Source of the DNA: an uncultured Sphingomonadales bacterium | Lineage (GTDB): Bacteria > Pseudomonadota > Alphaproteobacteria > Sphingomonadales > Sphingomonadaceae | Length of the DNA stretch: 11,403 bases | NCBI GenBank assembly: GCA_903893935.1 | Contig: CAITOD010000116.1 | Coordinates: 1-11,403 of the forward strand | Direction of reading: 5' to 3' | Part shown: piece after piece, positions 1 to 9,347 of the stretch | How positions within the stretch are numbered: the stretch's first letter is position 1 | Layout: every line of letters starts with the position of its first letter | The notes under the pieces: model-generated | Seen by the model: the letters and a program-made list of their open reading frames with translations, nothing else | Databases searched by the model: none | What the model was told of the DNA's origin: nothing | Position numbers and translations under genes: made by a program

Positions 1-834
1 CGCCGCCCGGCCCCCACCCCCGCGGCAAAACCCCCTGCGGCCCCCGCCACCAGGCCTCCGGCAGCCAAGGCCCCCGCGACAAAACCCCCGGCCGGCAAGC
101 TGCGCGGACCCGCGGATGGGGCCCAGTTGCCGCCTTCCGATCAGCTTGTGCGCATGCTCGCGGCGCGCAAAGTGCGGCAGCGCGACGAAGTTGTCGGGCA
201 GTTTCTCGGCATTCACGAAGGTCGCATCTACGGCTGGGCGGCGAACCTTGGCACGCCCGGTCAACCGGTCGACGTGGCACTGACAGTGGAGGGCGAAACC
301 ACGCGCCTCAGCGCCAAACATCGCTTCGCCGAATGGGCCGATCTGCCGCGCGAAGCGGCGCGCAACGGCTTCACCTTCGACATGCCCAAAGCCTATTGGA
401 GCAACGAAGACGGCACGCATCTCTCGCTGATCGTGGCGGGGTCGGAGCTGGTGCTGGCTTCCGGCGTGGCGGTGCCACCGGGTATCGAGCTCGATCGCGT
501 CGGCGTGGCCGGCATGTGCGAAGGCGCCCGGGACGGCACGCTGACCGGTTGGGCCAGCTTTCCCGAAGAACCCGATCGCGTGGTGGAACTGGCCGCTTAT
601 GTCGACGGCGCATTCCTGGCGCGCTTCGACGCCGATCTGCCGCACCCCAAAACGGCGCATGGCAGGGGCGGATTTCAGTTGCCGATCCCCGACGCGCTGC
701 TTGGCGACAGCAAGGTGCAGATCGACCTCGTGATGGCCGAAACCGGCATTCCAATGCCCAATTCGCCCTTTTCGGTGACAGCACAGCGGTTCAGCGTGGG
801 CCGCCTCGCCAAAGTCTGGAAATTCGGCAAGTGA
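1..834 (+). CDS. C-terminal part of a protein with a Pro/Ala/Lys linker and two GWA-type repeats (5' end outside window)
   Basis: The reading frame is open from the first base and ends at TGA 832-834, so the gene starts upstream of the window. Codons 1-35 are almost only Pro, Ala, Lys, Arg and Thr, which looks like a disordered linker. A beta-rich region follows with two related units about 105 codons apart. Each has a Gly-Trp-Ala core (codons 78-80 and 183-185) preceded by a glycine-containing turn, and each runs on into a 'V.L...V.G' strand and a 'GF....P' strand. Such GWA units occur, in my recollection, next to glycosyltransferase domains in bacterial polysaccharide loci, so this may be the tail of a larger glycosyltransferase or polysaccharide-biosynthesis protein; that is inference. 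No catalytic motif is visible in the part present. The stop codon overlaps the GTG start of the epimerase gene by 4 bases (GTGA), which suggests translational coupling. A TTG at 127 could be mistaken for a start, but it lies inside the open frame. Confidence 0.72.
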   Translation, partial: RRPAPTPAAKPPAAPATRPPAAKAPATKPPAGKLRGPADGAQLPPSDQLVRMLAARKVRQRDEVVGQFLGIHEGRIYGWAANLGTPGQPVDVALTVEGETTRLSAKHRFAEWADLPREAARNGFTFDMPKAYWSNEDGTHLSLIVAGSELVLASGVAVPPGIELDRVGVAGMCEGARDGTLTGWASFPEEPDRVVELAAYVDGAFLARFDADLPHPKTAHGRGGFQLPIPDALLGDSKVQIDLVMAETGIPMPNSPFSVTAQRFSVGRLAKVWKFGK

Positions 835-1748
835 ACATCCTGGTTACCGGCGGCGCCGGGTTTATCGGCGCCAATCTCGTGCCGCAGCTGGTCGCGGCAG
901 GCCACGCCGTGCGCGTGCTCGATTCCGAAGTCATGGGCAAACGCGCGCATCTGGGCGATTTCGCCGGCGAATTCCTGCACGGCGACATTCGCGACGAAGC
1001 CATGCTCGGGCAAGCGCTCGACGGAATCGAAGCGGTCATTCACCTCGCCGCCGATACGCGGGTGGTCGAATCGATCGCCGATCCCGCGCTCAACTTCGAT
1101 GTCAACGTGGTCGGCTCGTTCCGCCTGCTCGAAGCGATGCGCGCGCGCGGCATTACCCGGCTGATCAATGCATCGACCGGCGGCGCGATCATCGGCGAAG
1201 CCGAACCCCCGGTGCACGAGGAAATGGTGCCCCGCCCCGTCTCGCCCTACGGCGCAACCAAGCTGGCGGTCGAAGGCCTGTGCGCGGCTTATGCCGGCAG
1301 CTACGGCTTCACCACGATCTCTTTGCGGTTTGCCAATGTCTACGGGCCGCGTTCGTTCCACAAGGGCAGCGTGGTGGCGGCGTTCTTCAAGCGGATACTC
1401 GCAGGCGAAACGCTGGTGGTCTATGGCGATGGCGAGCACACGCGCGACTTTGTCTATGTCGAAGACTTGTGCGACGGCATCGTGCGTGCGCTCGGCTGCG
1501 AGGCGTCAGGGGTCTACCAACTCGGATCGGGCGTGCCGCTGTCGGTGAACGGACTGATCGCGGCCATGCGCGAAGTGGTCGCGCCACGGACTTTCGCGGT
1601 GGACTATCGCCCCGCGCGCGCGGGCGAAATCGTGCGGACCTGGTGCGCAATCGACCATGCCCGGCGACACCTCGGGTTCGACCCCGCCACGCCACTGGAA
1701 CAGGGCCTTGCCGCCACCTGGCAGTGGTTCCTCGATTCGCACCGATAG
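831..1748 (+). CDS. NAD-dependent epimerase/dehydratase (extended SDR, UDP-glucose 4-epimerase-like)
   Basis: A 305-residue protein read from GTG 831, which overlaps the previous stop. The start is set by the protein: the first beta strand and the glycine-rich NAD(P) motif TGGAGFIG fall at residues 6-13, as expected for an extended short-chain dehydrogenase/reductase. The catalytic tyrosine and lysine are in SPYGATK (Tyr140, Lys144), with Ser115/Thr116 as the likely third member of the triad. 'RFANVYGPR' and 'VYGDGEHTRDFVYVEDL' are typical substrate-domain signatures. The length is usual for the family. The reaction is probably epimerisation or dehydration of a nucleotide-activated sugar in the cytoplasm, feeding a surface polysaccharide; the exact sugar cannot be read from the sequence. 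The gene is in an operon with the upstream gene and is followed by a long non-coding stretch, so it is probably the last gene of its unit. The family call is secure; the substrate is not. Confidence 0.9.
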   Translation: MNILVTGGAGFIGANLVPQLVAAGHAVRVLDSEVMGKRAHLGDFAGEFLHGDIRDEAMLGQALDGIEAVIHLAADTRVVESIADPALNFDVNVVGSFRLLEAMRARGITRLINASTGGAIIGEAEPPVHEEMVPRPVSPYGATKLAVEGLCAAYAGSYGFTTISLRFANVYGPRSFHKGSVVAAFFKRILAGETLVVYGDGEHTRDFVYVEDLCDGIVRALGCEASGVYQLGSGVPLSVNGLIAAMREVVAPRTFAVDYRPARAGEIVRTWCAIDHARRHLGFDPATPLEQGLAATWQWFLDSHR

Positions 1749-2626: not shown

Positions 2627-2685
2627 CTCCACACCTGAGAATCAAATAAAATATCGCTATGCACGCGTGTCGGCACGCCATGGCA

Positions 2686-2693
2686 AAGAAGGG
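2686..2693 (+). promoter_or_regulatory. Ribosome-binding site that decides the start of the UDP-sulfoquinovose synthase gene
   Basis: AAGAAGGG lies 7 bases before ATG 2701. Earlier in-frame ATG codons exist at 2659 and 2680, but they have no comparable site and would add residues ahead of the first Rossmann strand. Confidence 0.7.
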
Positions 2694-2700
2694 TTATTTC

Positions 2701-3963
2701 ATGGAAAAAGTAATAGTCCTTGGCGGTGACGGCTTTTGCGGCTGGCCAACGGCGCTGCACTTGTCGGATATCGGCTACGAGGTTGTGATCGTCGACAATC
2801 TTTCGCGTCGCAAGATCGATATCGAGCTCGAAGCCGAATCGCTTACCCCGATCAGCCCGATCGGCGTGCGGATCGCCGCGTGGCAGGAAGTCAGCGGCAA
2901 GACCATCCGCTATGAAAACCTGACTGTCGGTGCGGATTATGACCGCTTGCTGGAGCTTATCCGCCGGGAAAATCCGCGCGCGATCGTGCACTTTGCCGAA
3001 CAGCGCGCGGCGCCTTATTCGATGAAGACCTCGCGCCATCGCCGCTACACGGTCAACAACAATCTGAACGCCACGCACGATGTGCTTTCGGCGATCATCG
3101 AATCCGGGCTCGATGTGCATCTGGTGCATCTCGGCACGATGGGCGTCTATGGCTACGGCACCGCGGGGATGAAGATTCCCGAGGGCTATCTGCCGGTCAC
3201 TGTCGATACGCCCGAAGGTCCGACCACGATCGAGATCCTCTATCCGGCCAATCCGGGCAGCATCTACCATATGACCAAAGCGCAGGACGCGCTGTTCTTC
3301 TGGTATTACAACCGCAATTACAGCACCCGCGTGACCGATCTGCACCAGGGCATCGTGTGGGGCACGCAAACCCGCCAGACCTCGCTCGACGAGCGGCTGA
3401 TCAACCGCTTCGATTACGACGGCGATTACGGCACTGTGCTCAATCGCTTTCTGATGCAGGCCGCGATCGGCCATCCGATGACGGTGCATGGCACCGGTGG
3501 CCAGACGCGCGCGTTTATCCACATTCGCGACACCGTGCATTGCATCGAACTGGCGATTGCCAACCCGCCCGCGCGCGGCGAACGCGTCGCGATCATGAAC
3601 CAGATGACCGAAACGCATCGCCTGATCGATCTGGCGCAGATGATCTCGGGCATGACCGGCCAACCTTACGAACTGGTACCCAATCCGCGCAAGGAAGCGG
3701 CCGAGAACACGCTCGACGTGTGCAACGCCTCGTTCCTGCGGCTTGGCCTCAAGCCGACACGGCTCGAAGAAGGCCTGGCCGAGGAAGTGGCCGAGATTGC
3801 TGCACGCTACGCGCATCGGTGCGATCGCTCGAAAATCCCTTGCCACTCGCACTGGTTGCCCAAAGATGCTAGTGACGAAACGCGCGAACGCTTCATCAAA
3901 ATGGTCAATGCACCCCGTGAAAACGAAGCATACCGGGCCCAGAAGTTGATTGCCGTAAATTGA
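2701..3963 (+). CDS. sqdB: UDP-sulfoquinovose synthase family protein (SQD1/SqdB type)
   Basis: A 420-residue extended SDR enzyme. SQD1/SqdB converts UDP-glucose and sulfite to UDP-sulfoquinovose in the presence of NAD+. The sequence carries the features that separate this family from ordinary epimerases: the nucleotide motif GGDGFCGW (residues 8-15), the 'VDNLSRR' loop, 'ESLTPI', 'VHFAEQRAAPYSM' (96-108), 'HLGTMGVYG' with the catalytic threonine (Thr146), 'YHMTK' with Tyr189 and Lys193, 'RFDYDGDYGTVLNRF' and 'GGQTRAFIHIRDTV'. Compared from memory with Arabidopsis SQD1, the Thr/Tyr/Lys triad and these blocks align along the whole length. The start is ATG 2701, chosen for the ribosome-binding site and the immediate Rossmann strand. 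No SQDG glycosyltransferase (SqdD/SqdX type) is in the window. Its neighbours are capsule-export genes, so the sulfonated sugar may go into an exported polysaccharide rather than a lipid; that part is inference. Confidence 0.88.
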   Translation: MEKVIVLGGDGFCGWPTALHLSDIGYEVVIVDNLSRRKIDIELEAESLTPISPIGVRIAAWQEVSGKTIRYENLTVGADYDRLLELIRRENPRAIVHFAEQRAAPYSMKTSRHRRYTVNNNLNATHDVLSAIIESGLDVHLVHLGTMGVYGYGTAGMKIPEGYLPVTVDTPEGPTTIEILYPANPGSIYHMTKAQDALFFWYYNRNYSTRVTDLHQGIVWGTQTRQTSLDERLINRFDYDGDYGTVLNRFLMQAAIGHPMTVHGTGGQTRAFIHIRDTVHCIELAIANPPARGERVAIMNQMTETHRLIDLAQMISGMTGQPYELVPNPRKEAAENTLDVCNASFLRLGLKPTRLEEGLAEEVAEIAARYAHRCDRSKIPCHSHWLPKDASDETRERFIKMVNAPRENEAYRAQKLIAVN

Positions 3964-4030: not shown

Positions 4031-5428
4031 ATGGCCAAGGATTATTGGGGCAGAGGCACAGGGTTCCTGACGCCACGCGATCCGGACGGTGATGCGCCGG
4101 CAGCCGAACGGCTATCGACCGAACCCACCGCGCGCGATGCCAAGCCCAAGCGTTCCACCTTCACGTTGCCCAGGCTGCCGCAGGCGCTGTCGCGGCAGAA
4201 GGGCGCGGTCGCGCTCGACGAACTGAAAGTCACGGCGCGGCCCAAAGCCGACGCGCCCGGCTATTTCGACGCGCGCGATGCCAGGCAGCCGGCGTTCCCC
4301 GAGCTGGTGCGCACGGTCGATTTCGGGCGCAAAGTGTGGTTCGCGGTCTCGTTCGTGGCGCCACTGGTGATCGGCGGCATCTATTTGTTCCTGATTGCCC
4401 CCGATGAATATGTCACCGAAATGCGCTTCAGCGTGCGCGTCCCGATCAGTGCCCACGCCGCCAACAACAGCGCCGGCGCGGGCTCGTTCGACGTCGTCTA
4501 TGGGGGCAACGGGCCGCCCACGACCGACCCCCTCGATAACTTCACTGTCACCGATTATATCTCGAGCGCGCAGGCGGCGCGTGACCTCGATGCCAAAGTC
4601 AATCTTCGCGCGATGTTCAACAAGCCGTCGGACCCGCTTTCCAAACTGGGCGAGCATCCCACCGCCGAGCGGCTGGGCAAATACTGGCGCAAGATGGTCT
4701 ACGCCAATTTCGACCCGGCAACCGGGCTCGCCGTGGTGCGCGTGAACGCCTATTCGGCTGCAGACAGCTTTGCGATCGCCAGCAGCCTGCTGAGCTTGTC
4801 CGCAGACGTGGTCAATTCGATCGACACACAGTCGCAACAGGATTCGGTGCGCTATGCACAAGGCCAATATGACCGGGCGGTGGCGCGGGTCGCCGGCTTG
4901 CGCGCCGAACTGGAAAGCTTTCGACTGAAGTCCAACGTCGTGAACCCGGAACGCGCGGAAGTTTCGGAAGACCTGCAGATTGTCGATCAGGCCGATCACT
5001 TGCGCAGCCAGGATCTGGCGCAGCTCGACATGCTCAAAAAACAGCTGGGCAACCCGCAGGCGCCGCAAATTCTCGTGCTGCAAAAACAGATCGACGGGCT
5101 AACCAAACAGATCGCGGCTGCGCGCGCGAGCGGTGGCGCGCTGCCGGGCGAACCGAGGATGGCCATAACGGTCGGCCGTTTCGAAGATCTTACGACAAAA
5201 CTGAACCAGGCGGTGTCGGTGCAGTCGTCTGCGCTGCAGGCCCTGAGCGAAGAAAAGACCGCCGCGCAAGCCCAGCGCCTCTATCTTGCGACATATGTCC
5301 ATCCTTCCAAGCCCGAGGCGCCCTTGGCGCCGCAGCGCTGGCTCGACATGCTGCTGATCCTGGTCTCGGCCGCGATGGTGTGGGTGATCGGCCGCATGAT
5401 CGGCAATTCGATCATGGAGCACGACTGA
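4031..5428 (+). CDS. kpsE: Capsule polysaccharide export inner-membrane protein (KpsE/BexC/CtrB type)
   Basis: A 465-residue polysaccharide co-polymerase of the ABC-dependent capsule pathway. It spans the inner membrane and projects into the periplasm to link the ABC transporter to the outer-membrane channel. An unusually long, charged and Pro-rich cytoplasmic tail covers residues 1-100. The first membrane segment is about 103-123 and is followed by 'APDEYVTEMRFSVR', a typical KpsE/Wzz-like block. The periplasmic part contains coiled-coil-like helices (about 270-365 and 385-420). The proline-rich 'HPSKPEAPLAPQRW' (424-437) precedes the second membrane segment (about 437-457), and the chain ends inside the cell. 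E. coli KpsE is about 380 residues, so most of the extra length is N-terminal. ATG 4031 has GGGGAAG seven bases upstream. The stop overlaps the permease start, which implies coupled translation. Confidence 0.9.
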   Translation: MAKDYWGRGTGFLTPRDPDGDAPAAERLSTEPTARDAKPKRSTFTLPRLPQALSRQKGAVALDELKVTARPKADAPGYFDARDARQPAFPELVRTVDFGRKVWFAVSFVAPLVIGGIYLFLIAPDEYVTEMRFSVRVPISAHAANNSAGAGSFDVVYGGNGPPTTDPLDNFTVTDYISSAQAARDLDAKVNLRAMFNKPSDPLSKLGEHPTAERLGKYWRKMVYANFDPATGLAVVRVNAYSAADSFAIASSLLSLSADVVNSIDTQSQQDSVRYAQGQYDRAVARVAGLRAELESFRLKSNVVNPERAEVSEDLQIVDQADHLRSQDLAQLDMLKKQLGNPQAPQILVLQKQIDGLTKQIAAARASGGALPGEPRMAITVGRFEDLTTKLNQAVSVQSSALQALSEEKTAAQAQRLYLATYVHPSKPEAPLAPQRWLDMLLILVSAAMVWVIGRMIGNSIMEHD

Positions 5429-6255
5429 TGGCCAGCCGGCCCGGAGCGATTCCCCCGGGAGGAGCGCGGTACTGGGATGTCGCGCTTTTTAATGCGATAA
5501 ATTCGTTTCGCTCGATCTTCTGGCACGAAGCGGACATGCACCATGGCCGGCGCCTGATGATGGGCTATCTGGCGGCAGGGGCAGAGCCGTTGTTCATCGT
5601 GCTGGTGCTGAACCTGCTGTTCACGATGCTGGCGCGCCACACCCCTTATGGACGCAGCTCGCTGCTGTTTCTGGGCACCGGCGTCTATCCGATCTACATG
5701 TTCATTCACACCTCGATCCGGATGCGCTCGCCGCTCGGGCGCGGCAAGTATCGCGTCCAGTTTCCCATGGAACGCCCTCTGTTTGTGCTCTTCTCGAATG
5801 CTCTGCAGCATTACATCACATATATGTGCGTTATTCTGGTGTTCTTCGGCGCACTGTATATCTCCGGGGTCGACGATGCCATTCCCTACGATCCGGTCCG
5901 CGCGCTGGAGGCGATCACCGGCGTTTATCTGATCGGGTTTGGCGCGGGCATCGTGAATGCCATTTTCGGCCGCATGTTCCCGGTCTGGGACCTCGCGTGG
6001 CCTGCGATTTCACGCACGGTGCTGCACTTTTCGGGGCTCTATTACGTCGCCGCGTACTTGCCACCGACCACGCGCTACTATCTGCTGTTCAACCCGATGC
6101 TGAGCGGCACGAACTGGTTCCGCATGGCGTTTTATCCGTTTTATCCTGCCGCCCACTCGGGCGCGCAATATGTGATCTTCTGCGGGATGGGGCTGGTGAC
6201 GTTCGGCCTGCTGCTGGAGGCGAACACGCGACAGTACCTGGAAGCCAAGGAATAG
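5428..6255 (+). CDS. kpsM: Capsule polysaccharide ABC transporter permease (KpsM/BexB/CtrC type)
   Basis: A 275-residue integral membrane protein of the ABC-2 type used for capsule export. About six hydrophobic segments can be seen (near residues 43-69, 77-97, 117-145, 161-181, 192-212 and 247-264), the usual number for KpsM. It has typical features such as 'RSSLLFLGTGVYPIYMF', 'FPMERPLFVLFSNALQHYI', and a C-terminal 'NPMLSGTNWFR' block followed by the last membrane helix. The start ATG 5428 shares a base with the kpsE stop (TGATG), and GGAG at 5416-5419 is a good ribosome-binding site 8 bases upstream. An in-frame GTG farther upstream (5380) would only extend the protein into kpsE. It should form a dimer with the KpsT-like ATPase encoded four bases downstream. 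Confidence 0.9.
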   Translation: MASRPGAIPPGGARYWDVALFNAINSFRSIFWHEADMHHGRRLMMGYLAAGAEPLFIVLVLNLLFTMLARHTPYGRSSLLFLGTGVYPIYMFIHTSIRMRSPLGRGKYRVQFPMERPLFVLFSNALQHYITYMCVILVFFGALYISGVDDAIPYDPVRALEAITGVYLIGFGAGIVNAIFGRMFPVWDLAWPAISRTVLHFSGLYYVAAYLPPTTRYYLLFNPMLSGTNWFRMAFYPFYPAAHSGAQYVIFCGMGLVTFGLLLEANTRQYLEAKE

Positions 6256-6259
6256 CGGC

Positions 6260-6985
6260 ATGATCAGGTTGCGCGGGGTCACGCACAGATACAACCGACG
6301 CCATGTCATTCTGACGGATGTCGATATCGAGATCCCGACCGATCGCCGCGTGGCGCTGATGGCCGGGCCCTATTCGGGCAAGACGACGGTGCTGCAGATC
6401 ATCGCGCGGCAGCTGACGCCGTGGCGGGGCCGGATCGAGCGCACCGGGCGCGTTTCATTCATCGGCGGATTTCACACCGCATTCCGTTCGACCATGACGG
6501 CGCGCCAGAACTTTGGCTTTGCTGCCGAACTTTACGGATGCAACCCGTCGCAGGTGATCGGTTTCATCGCCGAAATAAGCGGATTGGGCGATCTGCTCGA
6601 TGTGCCGTTCCGCCAGCTGGGTCTGCAAAACCGCATCAGCCTGTGCTATCTGCTGACTTACGCGCTCGATTTCGACACCTATCTGTTCGACAACATTGCC
6701 GGTCCGTGGATTTCGGAAATCAAGGATTTCCACAAGATCTGCGACGAACTCTACGCGCAAAAAACCGCCAGCGCCGGATCGATCTTTGCCACGCGCGAAC
6801 CGCGCGTGGCCGTCAAGTATTGCGATAGTGCGCTGCTGCTGCGCGATCGCAAGTTGTACTATTACGACGATCTGCAAGAGGCGCTGGCTATCGTCGAGGA
6901 AGACCGGCTGGCAGCCGAAAGCCTGGCGGCAAACCCGAACCCCGTCCCCGACTTGCCCGACAAACTGCGCGCGCTCAGAGATTGA
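6260..6985 (+). CDS. kpsT: KpsT-type ABC ATPase with degenerate catalytic motifs
   Basis: A 241-residue protein homologous along its length to the ATPase of capsule exporters. The N-terminal 'IRLRGVTHRYNRRHVILTDVDIEIPTDRRVALMAG' and the C-terminal 'KYCDSALLLRDRKLYYYDDLQEAL' follow the KpsT pattern. The key motifs are changed. Walker A reads AGPYSGKT (residues 35-42), so the first glycine is Ala while Lys41 remains. The signature serines are replaced (QLGLQNR, 119-125, keeping Gly121). Walker B is YLFDN, so Asp144 is followed by Asn145 instead of the catalytic Glu. The switch-loop His is Arg179 (ATRE), and the usual 'VTAVGD' D-loop region is absent. ATG 6260 has AAGGA eight bases upstream. It may be a poorly active or inactive subunit pairing with another ATPase, or a divergent subfamily. 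The frame is intact, so it does not look like a pseudogene. Confidence 0.85.
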   Translation: MIRLRGVTHRYNRRHVILTDVDIEIPTDRRVALMAGPYSGKTTVLQIIARQLTPWRGRIERTGRVSFIGGFHTAFRSTMTARQNFGFAAELYGCNPSQVIGFIAEISGLGDLLDVPFRQLGLQNRISLCYLLTYALDFDTYLFDNIAGPWISEIKDFHKICDELYAQKTASAGSIFATREPRVAVKYCDSALLLRDRKLYYYDDLQEALAIVEEDRLAAESLAANPNPVPDLPDKLRALRD

Positions 6986-6991
6986 GCCCTG

Positions 6992-8068
6992 GTGACATAC
7001 CAATCCTGCACACTCTCCCGGGTTCTGGCTTTGGCGCTGACCCTGGTGGCACCAGCCGCCAGTCGGGCGGGGCCGATCGCGCTTGACGGGCCGGCCTGCT
7101 TCGGACCGCGAGACAACGCCGGCTTGTCGTTCGAAGTAATCCAGCAGGCGCCGCCGCCCGGCGCAAATGGCGCGAACTATCAGTTTTACCCGCTGACCGG
7201 CGCCGCATCCGCGCAACTCGGCGCGCTCGCCGACGTCGCCGGGCCATACCAGCTTTATTACTTTCAGTGGGCGAACCGCGCCGACACCCCGATCACCACA
7301 CCACGCGGCGAGACGATCCACCGCAAGCCCAATCTGCAGCCATCGATGGGGCCGCAGCGCAAGCAACGATCGGCGTTCAGCACAATTGCCAGAGCCAATG
7401 CCTGCACGCTGGCGCAGACCGCCAGTGTGCTAGGACGCGCCGACCAGGCCCGCCACTTTGCCGAAACGGCGGGCATTCGCCTCGTGAGCGAAGCCGAACA
7501 GACCGACGAAGGGGCGCTTTCGCCAGAGGACGTCTGCGTTCTGGCCGATGGCACGCTGCCGCCGCATGGCGCCGGCGTGATGCTCGATTACGAAGTGCAG
7601 GACCGCCGCAGCCCCGAACAGACGCGCGCCTTTCTGTTGCAATATGCCGCCATGGTCCATGCCACCGGCCACCGCGCCATGCTGATGACCAATCCGCTTG
7701 ACGCCCCGACCCAGGCCTTTACCGGCATTTCGGCGGGCAATGCCCGCGCGATCGTGACAGCGTTCGACCGCACGACCATCTGGCTGTGGAGCCGCAATCG
7801 TCAGCACGATATCGCGGCCAGCTATCGGGCGCAGAAGGCGATGATCGAAGGCGGCGGCCGTTTCGACGGCTCACGGATCCTGCTGGAGTTCGAACTGGCC
7901 AATACGCAAGTGGAAGATGCGCAAACCGTGCGCGACCTGATCATCAACGACCATCTTGCCGGCGTGCTTCTGTGGCGTAACGGGGTACCGCAGGGGGGGC
8001 CGTGCAAATCGCCGGTGAACGCCAAAATTGCGATCATTGCGCTGGGGCACCAAAAAAATGACACTTAG
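6992..8068 (+). CDS. Secreted protein of unknown function in capsule operon (possible barrel-type glycosidase-like domain)
   Basis: A 358-residue protein I do not recognise. GTG 6992 begins 7 bases after the kpsT gene with only a weak ribosome-binding site. Residues 1-26 form a signal peptide (hydrophobic 10-21, with AxA-like ASRA before Gly27), so it should act in the periplasm or outside. Mature cysteines at 36, 138, 182 and 338 could form two disulfides. The C-terminal half alternates strands and helices in barrel fashion: 'GVMLDYE' (195-201), 'HRAMLMTNP' (227-235), 'TTIWLWSR' (261-268), 'RILLEFELAN' (295-304) and 'LAGVLLWRNG' (322-331). Asp199/Glu201 at the end of a strand, and Glu299/Glu301 on another, are in positions where barrel glycosidases carry catalytic acids. 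That fold guess is inference only. The position between ATPase and OPX genes suggests a role in processing or passing the exported polysaccharide. The stop lies inside the 5' end of the next frame. Confidence 0.75.
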   Translation: MTYQSCTLSRVLALALTLVAPAASRAGPIALDGPACFGPRDNAGLSFEVIQQAPPPGANGANYQFYPLTGAASAQLGALADVAGPYQLYYFQWANRADTPITTPRGETIHRKPNLQPSMGPQRKQRSAFSTIARANACTLAQTASVLGRADQARHFAETAGIRLVSEAEQTDEGALSPEDVCVLADGTLPPHGAGVMLDYEVQDRRSPEQTRAFLLQYAAMVHATGHRAMLMTNPLDAPTQAFTGISAGNARAIVTAFDRTTIWLWSRNRQHDIAASYRAQKAMIEGGGRFDGSRILLEFELANTQVEDAQTVRDLIINDHLAGVLLWRNGVPQGGPCKSPVNAKIAIIALGHQKNDT

Positions 8069-8105
8069 TTTGGTTAACGCTGTATCTGCTGCTCTGGGGT
8101 CCACC

Positions 8106-9347
8106 ATGAGGAACACTGTGACCGGCGTTGTCGATACCTTTCCGGCAGGTTTTGGAGATCGCACGACCGCGCCCCGGCCGGCACGCGCGCTTGCCGCATC
8201 GCTTGCGCTTGGCCTTTGCATCGCGCTGGGGGGGTGCTCGACCGTGCCCAAATCCGGGCCGCTGGTCGCCACCGTCAACCACGAAGCCAGGGAAGCGGCG
8301 CCGCCGTTCCTGCTCGTTCCGGTCAACCGCACCGCGCTTACCGAACTGTCGAAAATCAAGGCCGAGGAATTCGTCGCGCTGGCGATCAACCAGCCGGCGC
8401 CCGATGTCATGATCCACCGCGGCGACAAAGTCTCGATAACGCTGTGGGAATATGGCAGCGGCTTGCTGGGACCTGTGCCGTCGACCGGTCAGGCGACGAT
8501 CGGCCTGGTCGGTGCGCAATCGGCAAGCGTGCCGACCCAATCGGTCGACCAGGCCGGCACGATCATTGTTCCGTTTGCCGGCGAGATCAAGGCGGCAGGC
8601 CGCACCACACGGCAAGTCGAAGCCGCGATCGTTCAGGCACTGCGCGGAAAGGCCACCAATGCGCAGGCGCTCGTGCAGATCATGCAGACCACCGACAATT
8701 CGGTGACCGTGACGGGCGATGTCAATCACCCCGGCCGTATCACGCTGGCGCCTACCGGCACGCATCTGCTCGACGCGCTGTCCGAAGCGGGCGGCACCAC
8801 CGGCCGGGCGCGCGACATGCTGGTCCATCTGACCCGCGCGGGCAAAATCACCAGCACCCGGCTCTCGGTGATAAACGCCGATCCGGTGCAGAACATCTTT
8901 CTCAAGTCCGGCGACCTGCTGACGCTCGATCTGGAGCCGCAAAGCGTGGTGGTGCTGGGTGCCACCAACAAGAATCTCGATGTGCCGTTCGACAAGGACA
9001 GGATGACGCTCGCCGAAACGCTTGGCGCCGGCGGCGGTCTGGCCGACCGCCAGGCCGATCCTTATGGGGTCTATGTCTTGCGGTATGAAAAGCTGCCGGT
9101 GGCGCGCACGCTGACCACGCGGGCCCTGCCCGATTATCTGCAGGCGGGCGAACTGGTGCCGGTGGTCTATCAGATCGATATGCGCAGCGCCGACGGGCTG
9201 ATGCTGTCGCAGAATTTCATGATGCGCGATCACGATCTGGTCTATGTCGCCAATGCGCCGGCGGTCCAGATCGGCAAGCTGACATCGCTGTTCAACAGCA
9301 TTGCCGGCATCTTCAAAAGCAACAGTCTCAACGCTTACAACTATTAG
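8106..9347 (+). CDS. kpsD: Capsule polysaccharide export outer-membrane lipoprotein (OPX family, KpsD/Wza type)
   Basis: From ATG 8106 the protein has 413 residues. It carries a lipoprotein signal peptide with hydrophobic core ALAASLALGLCIALG and lipobox LGGC (Cys44), so the mature protein is lipid-anchored in the outer membrane. The polysaccharide-export domain begins at 'APDVMIHRGDKVSITLWEYG' (98-117). 'GTIIVPFAGEIKAAGRTTRQVEAAI' and 'VTVTGDVNHPGRITL' open the first SLBB-like domain, and 'VVVLGATNKNLDVPF' opens a second. The C-terminal 'AVQIGKLTSLFNSIAGIFKS' (386-405) looks like the amphipathic membrane helix of Wza-like channels. Two alternative starts exist at 8028 and 8058. ATG 8058 overlaps the upstream stop, but 8106 has GGGG six bases upstream and leaves a shorter region ahead of the hydrophobic core. 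The protein is the exit channel partner of KpsE. It is the last gene of the operon and faces merC. Confidence 0.9.
   Translation: MRNTVTGVVDTFPAGFGDRTTAPRPARALAASLALGLCIALGGCSTVPKSGPLVATVNHEAREAAPPFLLVPVNRTALTELSKIKAEEFVALAINQPAPDVMIHRGDKVSITLWEYGSGLLGPVPSTGQATIGLVGAQSASVPTQSVDQAGTIIVPFAGEIKAAGRTTRQVEAAIVQALRGKATNAQALVQIMQTTDNSVTVTGDVNHPGRITLAPTGTHLLDALSEAGGTTGRARDMLVHLTRAGKITSTRLSVINADPVQNIFLKSGDLLTLDLEPQSVVVLGATNKNLDVPFDKDRMTLAETLGAGGGLADRQADPYGVYVLRYEKLPVARTLTTRALPDYLQAGELVPVVYQIDMRSADGLMLSQNFMMRDHDLVYVANAPAVQIGKLTSLFNSIAGIFKSNSLNAYNY

Follow-up and report, generated by a model that had tools for sequence, protein, structure and literature searches.

A conserved KpsT-like ATPase subfamily of the Novosphingobium group without the catalytic glutamate, and almost always without the switch histidine

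Hydrolysis of ATP by the KpsT/Wzt subunit is generally regarded as the energy source of surface-polysaccharide exporters of the ATP-binding cassette (ABC) type. In the transporter of S. thermodepolymerans, mutation of the KpsT glutamate E151 to glutamine abolished secretion, and the E151Q transporter was found to co-purify with ATP (PMC11041684). In Pdr5, a site carrying asparagine at the catalytic-glutamate position binds ATP without hydrolysing it, and the nucleotide-binding domain (NBD) that lacks the glutamate retains a good signature serving its partner (PMC8421411). According to a review, degenerate sites hold ATP across many cycles in some transporters (PMC7756269). Here we examine a KpsT-type ABC ATPase subunit, termed KpsT*, that is encoded at positions 6260..6985 of a stretch of 11,403 nucleotides from an uncultured Sphingomonadales bacterium (contig CAITOD010000116.1; the whole stretch is called the window, and all features given below lie on its plus strand). 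It lacks the catalytic glutamate, the switch histidine and the signature motif. Judged by sequence comparison, KpsT* is a conserved subfamily of KpsT and not a decayed copy; it was encountered here in the Novosphingobium group, where it is fixed next to a membrane subunit, KpsM, of a type peculiar to it. The genes kpsE, kpsM and kpsT have been mentioned in a gel-forming Novosphingobium, in passages that do not discuss motifs (PMC11665390). No description of a KpsT family without catalytic residues was found in the open-licence literature, as covered by titles and the beginnings of abstracts. Nor did this literature yield a published exchange of a catalytic KpsT residue other than E151Q, of which older work has examples.

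The reading frame of KpsT* starts 4 bases past the kpsM stop and spans 241 amino acids. It is uninterrupted, as had been stated in the original prediction. On fold and sequence homology the protein belongs to KpsT. Its Walker A motif (P-loop; A35-GPYS-G40-K41-T42, 6362..6385) carries alanine in place of the first glycine, but still satisfies the general P-loop pattern [AG]x4GK[ST] and retains the lysine. This exchange is confined to the subclade of the window, four of 64 family members (P0001-P0004), with glycine in the other 60. In the Walker B motif YLFDN (6680..6694) Asp144 is retained, and the catalytic glutamate is replaced by Asn145, which aligns with E151 of the S. thermodepolymerans protein. 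The canonical signature YSSGMR is represented by the degenerate sequence LGLQNR (6617..6634), and the position of the switch (H-loop) histidine is occupied by Arg179 (6794..6796). The original prediction had named the alanine, the signature without serines, the Asp-Asn pair and the arginine at the switch position, and each of them is present. It had also claimed that there is no recognisable D-loop, which holds for the window but not for the family as a whole, where the aligned position, itself uncertain, is aspartate in 35 of 64 clusters. One further change had escaped it: Arg76 in the Q-loop region (6485..6487), assigned by alignment only, corresponds to a glutamine in 47 of 54 canonical KpsTs.

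Seven matches at E <= 1e-3 came from a plain search over 5.8 billion proteins, one of them being the window's own protein at 99%; the Walker B glutamate and the switch histidine are absent from all seven. A scan with one genome per species yielded six loci, five from Novosphingobium and one from an uncultured Sphingomonadales bacterium. The operon is present in the records of the cultured Novosphingobium strains NDB2Meth1 and FKTRR1. A profile built from 13 sequences matched 125 proteins at E <= 1e-3. Among the 120 profile matches listed, 66 clusters reach E <= 7e-50, three more fall between 8.5e-47 and 3.7e-38, and the remaining ones are generic ABC proteins with E of 7e-11 or worse. This search scored the 7999 candidates having most words in common with the profile; since the profile consists of degenerate sequences, canonical KpsTs were hardly present among these candidates. 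The KpsM-based sampling described below is free of this bias. With P0004, which came only from the plain search, 67 clusters were obtained (P0001-P0067, P0001 representing the window's protein), and removal of the fragments P0062 and P0066 and of P0067 left 64 full-length clusters; P0067 is a chimera that begins like P0054 and continues with unrelated sequence. Three far relatives with other residues (P0068-P0070) stand outside the 64. They have no intact P-loop pattern at Walker A and show D-D or D-Y at Walker B; they join the KpsT* family in a quick tree and may represent further stages of loss. For comparison, 54 canonical rows were used, i.e. the retained KpsT-like loci without the KpsT* rows and without three P-loop-less rows, which were excluded because the motifs are absent. 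Six other ABC proteins (L024, L026-L030) and 15 duplicates had also been removed before this count, as had three loci without a KpsT in the stretch.

The Walker A lysine and the Walker B aspartate are invariant in both groups (64/64 and 54/54). In contrast, the catalytic glutamate is present in all 54 canonical rows and in none of the KpsT* clusters (63 Asn, 1 Ser), and the switch histidine, again found in 54/54 canonical rows, occurs in a single KpsT* cluster (58 Arg, 4 Lys and 1 Gly in the others). That canonical KpsT keeps both residues had been stated correctly in the original prediction. At the Q-loop position KpsT* carries arginine in 62/64 and lysine in 2/64 clusters. The signature glycine (motif position 4) and the first signature serine are universal in the canonical rows (54/54 each), compared with 3/64 and 26/64 in KpsT*. 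The general P-loop pattern was observed in 64 of 65 rows of at least 220 amino acids, the chimera P0067 being included in this number. KpsT* thus differs from KpsT/BexA/CtrD, of which KpsT of S. thermodepolymerans has been solved (8tsh, 8tsi, 8tsl), in a Walker B glutamate and a signature that are replaced family-wide and in a switch histidine that is lost in 63/64. Because the glutamate is absent from every one of the 64 clusters, the window's included, chance or sequencing error can be excluded. In a careful tree of 49 rows the KpsT* and canonical groups part with full support, and in the quick tree of 86 rows the KpsT* family and the three far members form one side of a branch (Shimodaira-Hasegawa-like approximate likelihood ratio test, 97), the rows of both trees being hand-picked. 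A profile search of 397 genomes gave matches at E <= 1e-30 in 111; of the 30 loci inspected out of these, one is the window's own and 29 are canonical.

The association with the operon was assessed independently of the KpsT sequence by searching 195 genomes of the window's genus with KpsM. Twelve matches were obtained at E <= 1e-10. Eight of them are close (E <= 6e-67, the window's included), and in 8/8 KpsT* lies immediately downstream, lacking both glutamate and switch histidine. Next to the four distant matches (E 2e-14 to 9e-11), a canonical KpsT adjoins one, and no KpsT was found in the examined stretch beside the other three. The close KpsM type, termed KpsM* (5428..6255 in the window, its ATG overlapping the kpsE stop), has the full length of KpsM and scores 66 bits with the NCBIfam KpsM model, the family cut-off being 300 bits. 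Its invariant stretches WD..WP, HFSG and AFYPFYP occur in all eight members of the clade and in none of eight aligned canonical KpsMs, indicating that the membrane subunit diverged together with the ATPase. Genes for KpsM, KpsE and the outer-membrane exporter accompany KpsT* in the window and in six named loci (L031-L036). KpsM and KpsE are immediately upstream in 6/6, KpsE being truncated by the contig end in L033, and the outer-membrane exporter is downstream in 6/6, with intervening genes in L035 and L036. Of the two options raised in the original prediction, a divergent exporter subfamily is therefore supported, by the eight genomes at the same operon position as well as by the family at large. 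The KpsM-based sampling also answers the check proposed there, whether the substitutions are conserved at this operon position, in favour of a subfamily. Both losses recur at this position in 8/8 genomes and across the family with one histidine exception, which rules out strain-specific decay.

Selection was estimated as the ratio of nonsynonymous to synonymous substitution rates (dN/dS). For ten pairs among five closer relatives the ratio is 0.09-0.21 in KpsT*, 0.06-0.11 in KpsM* and 0.06-0.28 in the outer-membrane protein, and for KpsT* it is below 1 in all 21 pairs compared. The operon relatives are under purifying selection. Retention of the residues that bind Mg-ATP together with loss of the catalytic ones is not a pattern of random decay.

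It seems most likely, from the motifs, that KpsT* binds ATP, with very slow hydrolysis or none. It retains the residues holding Mg-ATP, namely the Walker A lysine and threonine/serine and the Walker B aspartate. The loss of secretion with E151Q, the asparagine site of Pdr5 and the review of degenerate sites are the grounds on which KpsT* is taken to hold ATP unhydrolysed. KpsT* would bind ATP and homodimerise under KpsM*. As one polypeptide bears all the losses, such a homodimer would have two degenerate sites, each resembling the single non-hydrolysing site of Pdr5, with asparagine for glutamate, the histidine replaced and the signature broken. ATP would then act as a clamp or switch and not as a fuel that is burnt repeatedly. 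By analogy, and more weakly, movement of the polymer through KpsM* might be powered by means other than hydrolysis in KpsT; candidate drives are polymer growth, the proton gradient, or the assembly with KpsE and the outer-membrane protein. To the whole reading, a conserved pseudo-ATPase subfamily that holds ATP as a clamp or switch while KpsM* transport is driven otherwise, we assign a probability of roughly 0.6.

Site 1 of yeast Pdr5 (PDR/ABCG) has in common with KpsT* the asparagine, the replaced switch histidine and a broken signature, which reads LNVEQ in Pdr5 and mostly L-x-V/L/I-x in KpsT*. Unlike KpsT*, which retains the Walker A lysine, Pdr5 is without this residue in its first site, and its second site still works. 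By sequence, NBD1 of CFTR is among the next-best solved relatives of KpsT* after KpsT. The degenerate CFTR site is located in this domain, which has a canonical signature and an active partner in NBD2. SbmA/BacA-type proteins (SLiPT) have no ATPase subunit and belong to a different ABC fold class. They are secondary peptide importers, unlike KpsM*, and nothing here points to proton coupling of KpsM*. As a precedent, they show that a membrane domain of ABC type can function with no hydrolysis of ATP; SbmA uses the proton gradient (PMC13316013).

Several observations weigh against the pseudo-ATPase reading. ATP binding is deduced from motifs, and Walker A is relaxed in the window's own subclade, of which P0004 has lost the second Walker A glycine, too. 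The conserved asparagine and arginines could form a different, working active site. An exploratory alignment of KpsM*, inspected for proton-coupling residues, showed only clade-specific conserved residues. In the ten close pairs, dN/dS is indicative of faster evolution in KpsT* than in KpsM. For the 11 pairs involving the window or L035 the ratio is 0.17-0.61, values that are rough because synonymous sites are near or past saturation.

Among the alternatives, a divergent yet active ATPase fares best, although we consider it unlikely. Here Asn145, Arg76 and Arg179 would build an alternative site whose slow hydrolysis suffices for transport. The strong conservation of the replacing residues (asparagine in 63/64, arginine at the Q position in 62/64 and at the switch position in 58/64) is in line with this, as is the purifying selection on the relatives of the gene. 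On the other hand, the signature, with which the partner subunit completes the site, has not settled on any single new consensus. Moreover, a glutamate-to-glutamine exchange at the position of Asn145 abolishes secretion in the solved KpsT (PMC11041684), and asparagine at this position is the mark of the non-hydrolysing site of Pdr5 (PMC8421411).

There is a distinctly smaller chance that KpsM* and KpsT* no longer form a transporter, acting instead as scaffold or regulatory proteins for KpsE, the outer-membrane protein or the sugar enzymes. A degenerate ATPase would fit such a role, and capsule transport proteins of Bordetella have a reported role in pathogenesis (PMC4264864). Also consistent with it, the KpsC/KpsS Kdo-linker enzymes (PF05159) of the glycolipid pathway, which characterise a classical group 2 capsule system, were not found in five of the eight KpsT* genomes, nor was a linked Kdo-glycolipid pathway. 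Where PF05159 does occur, it shares a contig with the canonical kpsT (G003 and G195) or lies on contig C672, separate from the window contig (G000). Yet the full KpsM-type length and the low dN/dS of KpsM*, and the presence of KpsE and a Poly_export/SLBB protein in 6/6 named loci, speak for an exporter.

Slightly less probable still is a heterodimer, in which the partner of KpsT* would be a canonical KpsT, or some other ABC ATPase, from elsewhere in the genome, on the model of asymmetric exporters; this was the other option in the original prediction, which had proposed a genome search for a second canonical kpsT. A canonical copy was indeed found in five of the eight KpsT* genomes (E <= 3e-71), and the window's assembly, 82% complete, carries one KpsC/KpsS-type gene on another contig, so that the part not assembled might contain a canonical system. 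But none was found in the window's assembly or in two others that are 91 and 93% complete, nor was a partner NBD with consensus motifs found within the window. In 5/5 cases the canonical KpsT is adjoined by a KpsM-like match (partial in one, at the stretch edge). Each site in an NBD dimer draws its Walker A/B motifs and its switch from one subunit and its signature from the partner. Both halves are missing from KpsT*, and a mixed dimer would therefore have no complete catalytic site, an argument that holds regardless of assembly completeness. In an asymmetric exporter the degenerate NBD would be expected to keep a consensus signature that completes the site of its partner, and that of KpsT* is broken; the glutamate-less NBD of Pdr5 has a good signature (PMC8421411). 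Pairing of KpsT* with a canonical KpsT is thus unlikely, and this part of the original prediction was not supported.

A decayed, non-functional copy, in favour of which the loss of most catalytic motifs could be cited, has next to no chance and was rejected in view of the family-wide absence of the glutamate beside an invariant Walker A lysine and Walker B aspartate, the synteny across the named loci and the dN/dS values.

A second KpsT-like class in the window's genus has no P-loop at all and mostly shows S-x-T-P-E-[Y and others]-[HR]-R instead. The Walker B aspartate is present in 52/52 clusters, the next residue being Ala, Gly, Ser, Val or Thr. Four of the 52 show a P-loop-like pattern, but at residues 74 or 190 and hence off the P-loop place. 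This class was detected in 7/195 genomes (E <= 1.1e-86), in all seven between KpsM-like and KpsE-like genes (L101-L107; e.g. L023:1444-2154). Only one of the seven has a canonical KpsT; none was found in the other six, of which two are listed as 100% complete and four as 52-94%. The branch of this class is very long, and its placement was flagged as doubtful by the tree tool. By its motifs, the second class would make KpsM exporters without hydrolysis more plausible. Tentatively, with the odds somewhat against it, Novosphingobium and its relatives may possess two or more kinds of KpsM-type exporter not powered by ATP hydrolysis in their KpsT, namely the window's class, with the ATP pocket but without catalysis, and the class in which the P-loop is lost as well. 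In these, an ABC exporter would have become a channel or a secondary transporter, its former motor being retained in a structural or regulatory role.

The natural loss of the glutamate, and with one exception of the histidine, in an operon under selection makes the need for hydrolysis testable in natural systems. In KpsT*, the kind of degenerate site known from work on Pdr5, CFTR and TAP would occur naturally in two copies. If the pseudo-ATPase reading is true, this exporter may work by a principle other than that of its well-studied cousins.

The remaining genes of the operon were assigned as follows. A KpsE/BexC/CtrB-type periplasmic co-polymerase is encoded at 4031..5428; its profile match starts only at residue 104, which points to a long N-terminal, presumably cytoplasmic extension. 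Downstream of KpsT*, a protein with a predicted GH18 chitinase-like barrel (6992..8068) has a relative in 6/6 named loci, at differing position and strand. It is followed by the outer-membrane polysaccharide exporter of the KpsD/Wza type (8058..9347) with Poly_export and SLBB domains, whose start is uncertain (TTG at 8028 is an alternative). The upstream part of the operon contains an NAD-dependent sugar epimerase/dehydratase (831..1748, start deduced from the reading frame) and an SQD1-like (UDP-sulfoquinovose synthase-like) enzyme (2659..3963). These two and a small gene are found upstream in 5/6 named loci; the L033 stretch starts too late, and in that genome the SQD1-like gene lies on a different contig. 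The SQD1-like protein scores 321 bits to Arabidopsis SQD1 (1qrr) and 315 bits to the NCBI model for UDP-sulfoquinovose synthase, below its cut-off of 575, and is 82-85% identical across the named loci having the gene. A sulfonated sugar in the putative polymer is possible, given this gene. With the SQD1-like query at E <= 1e-60, nine of the 195 genomes were recovered, the eight KpsT* genomes and G094, in which the neighbouring open reading frames were read as resembling a cellulose-synthase-type glycosyltransferase region.
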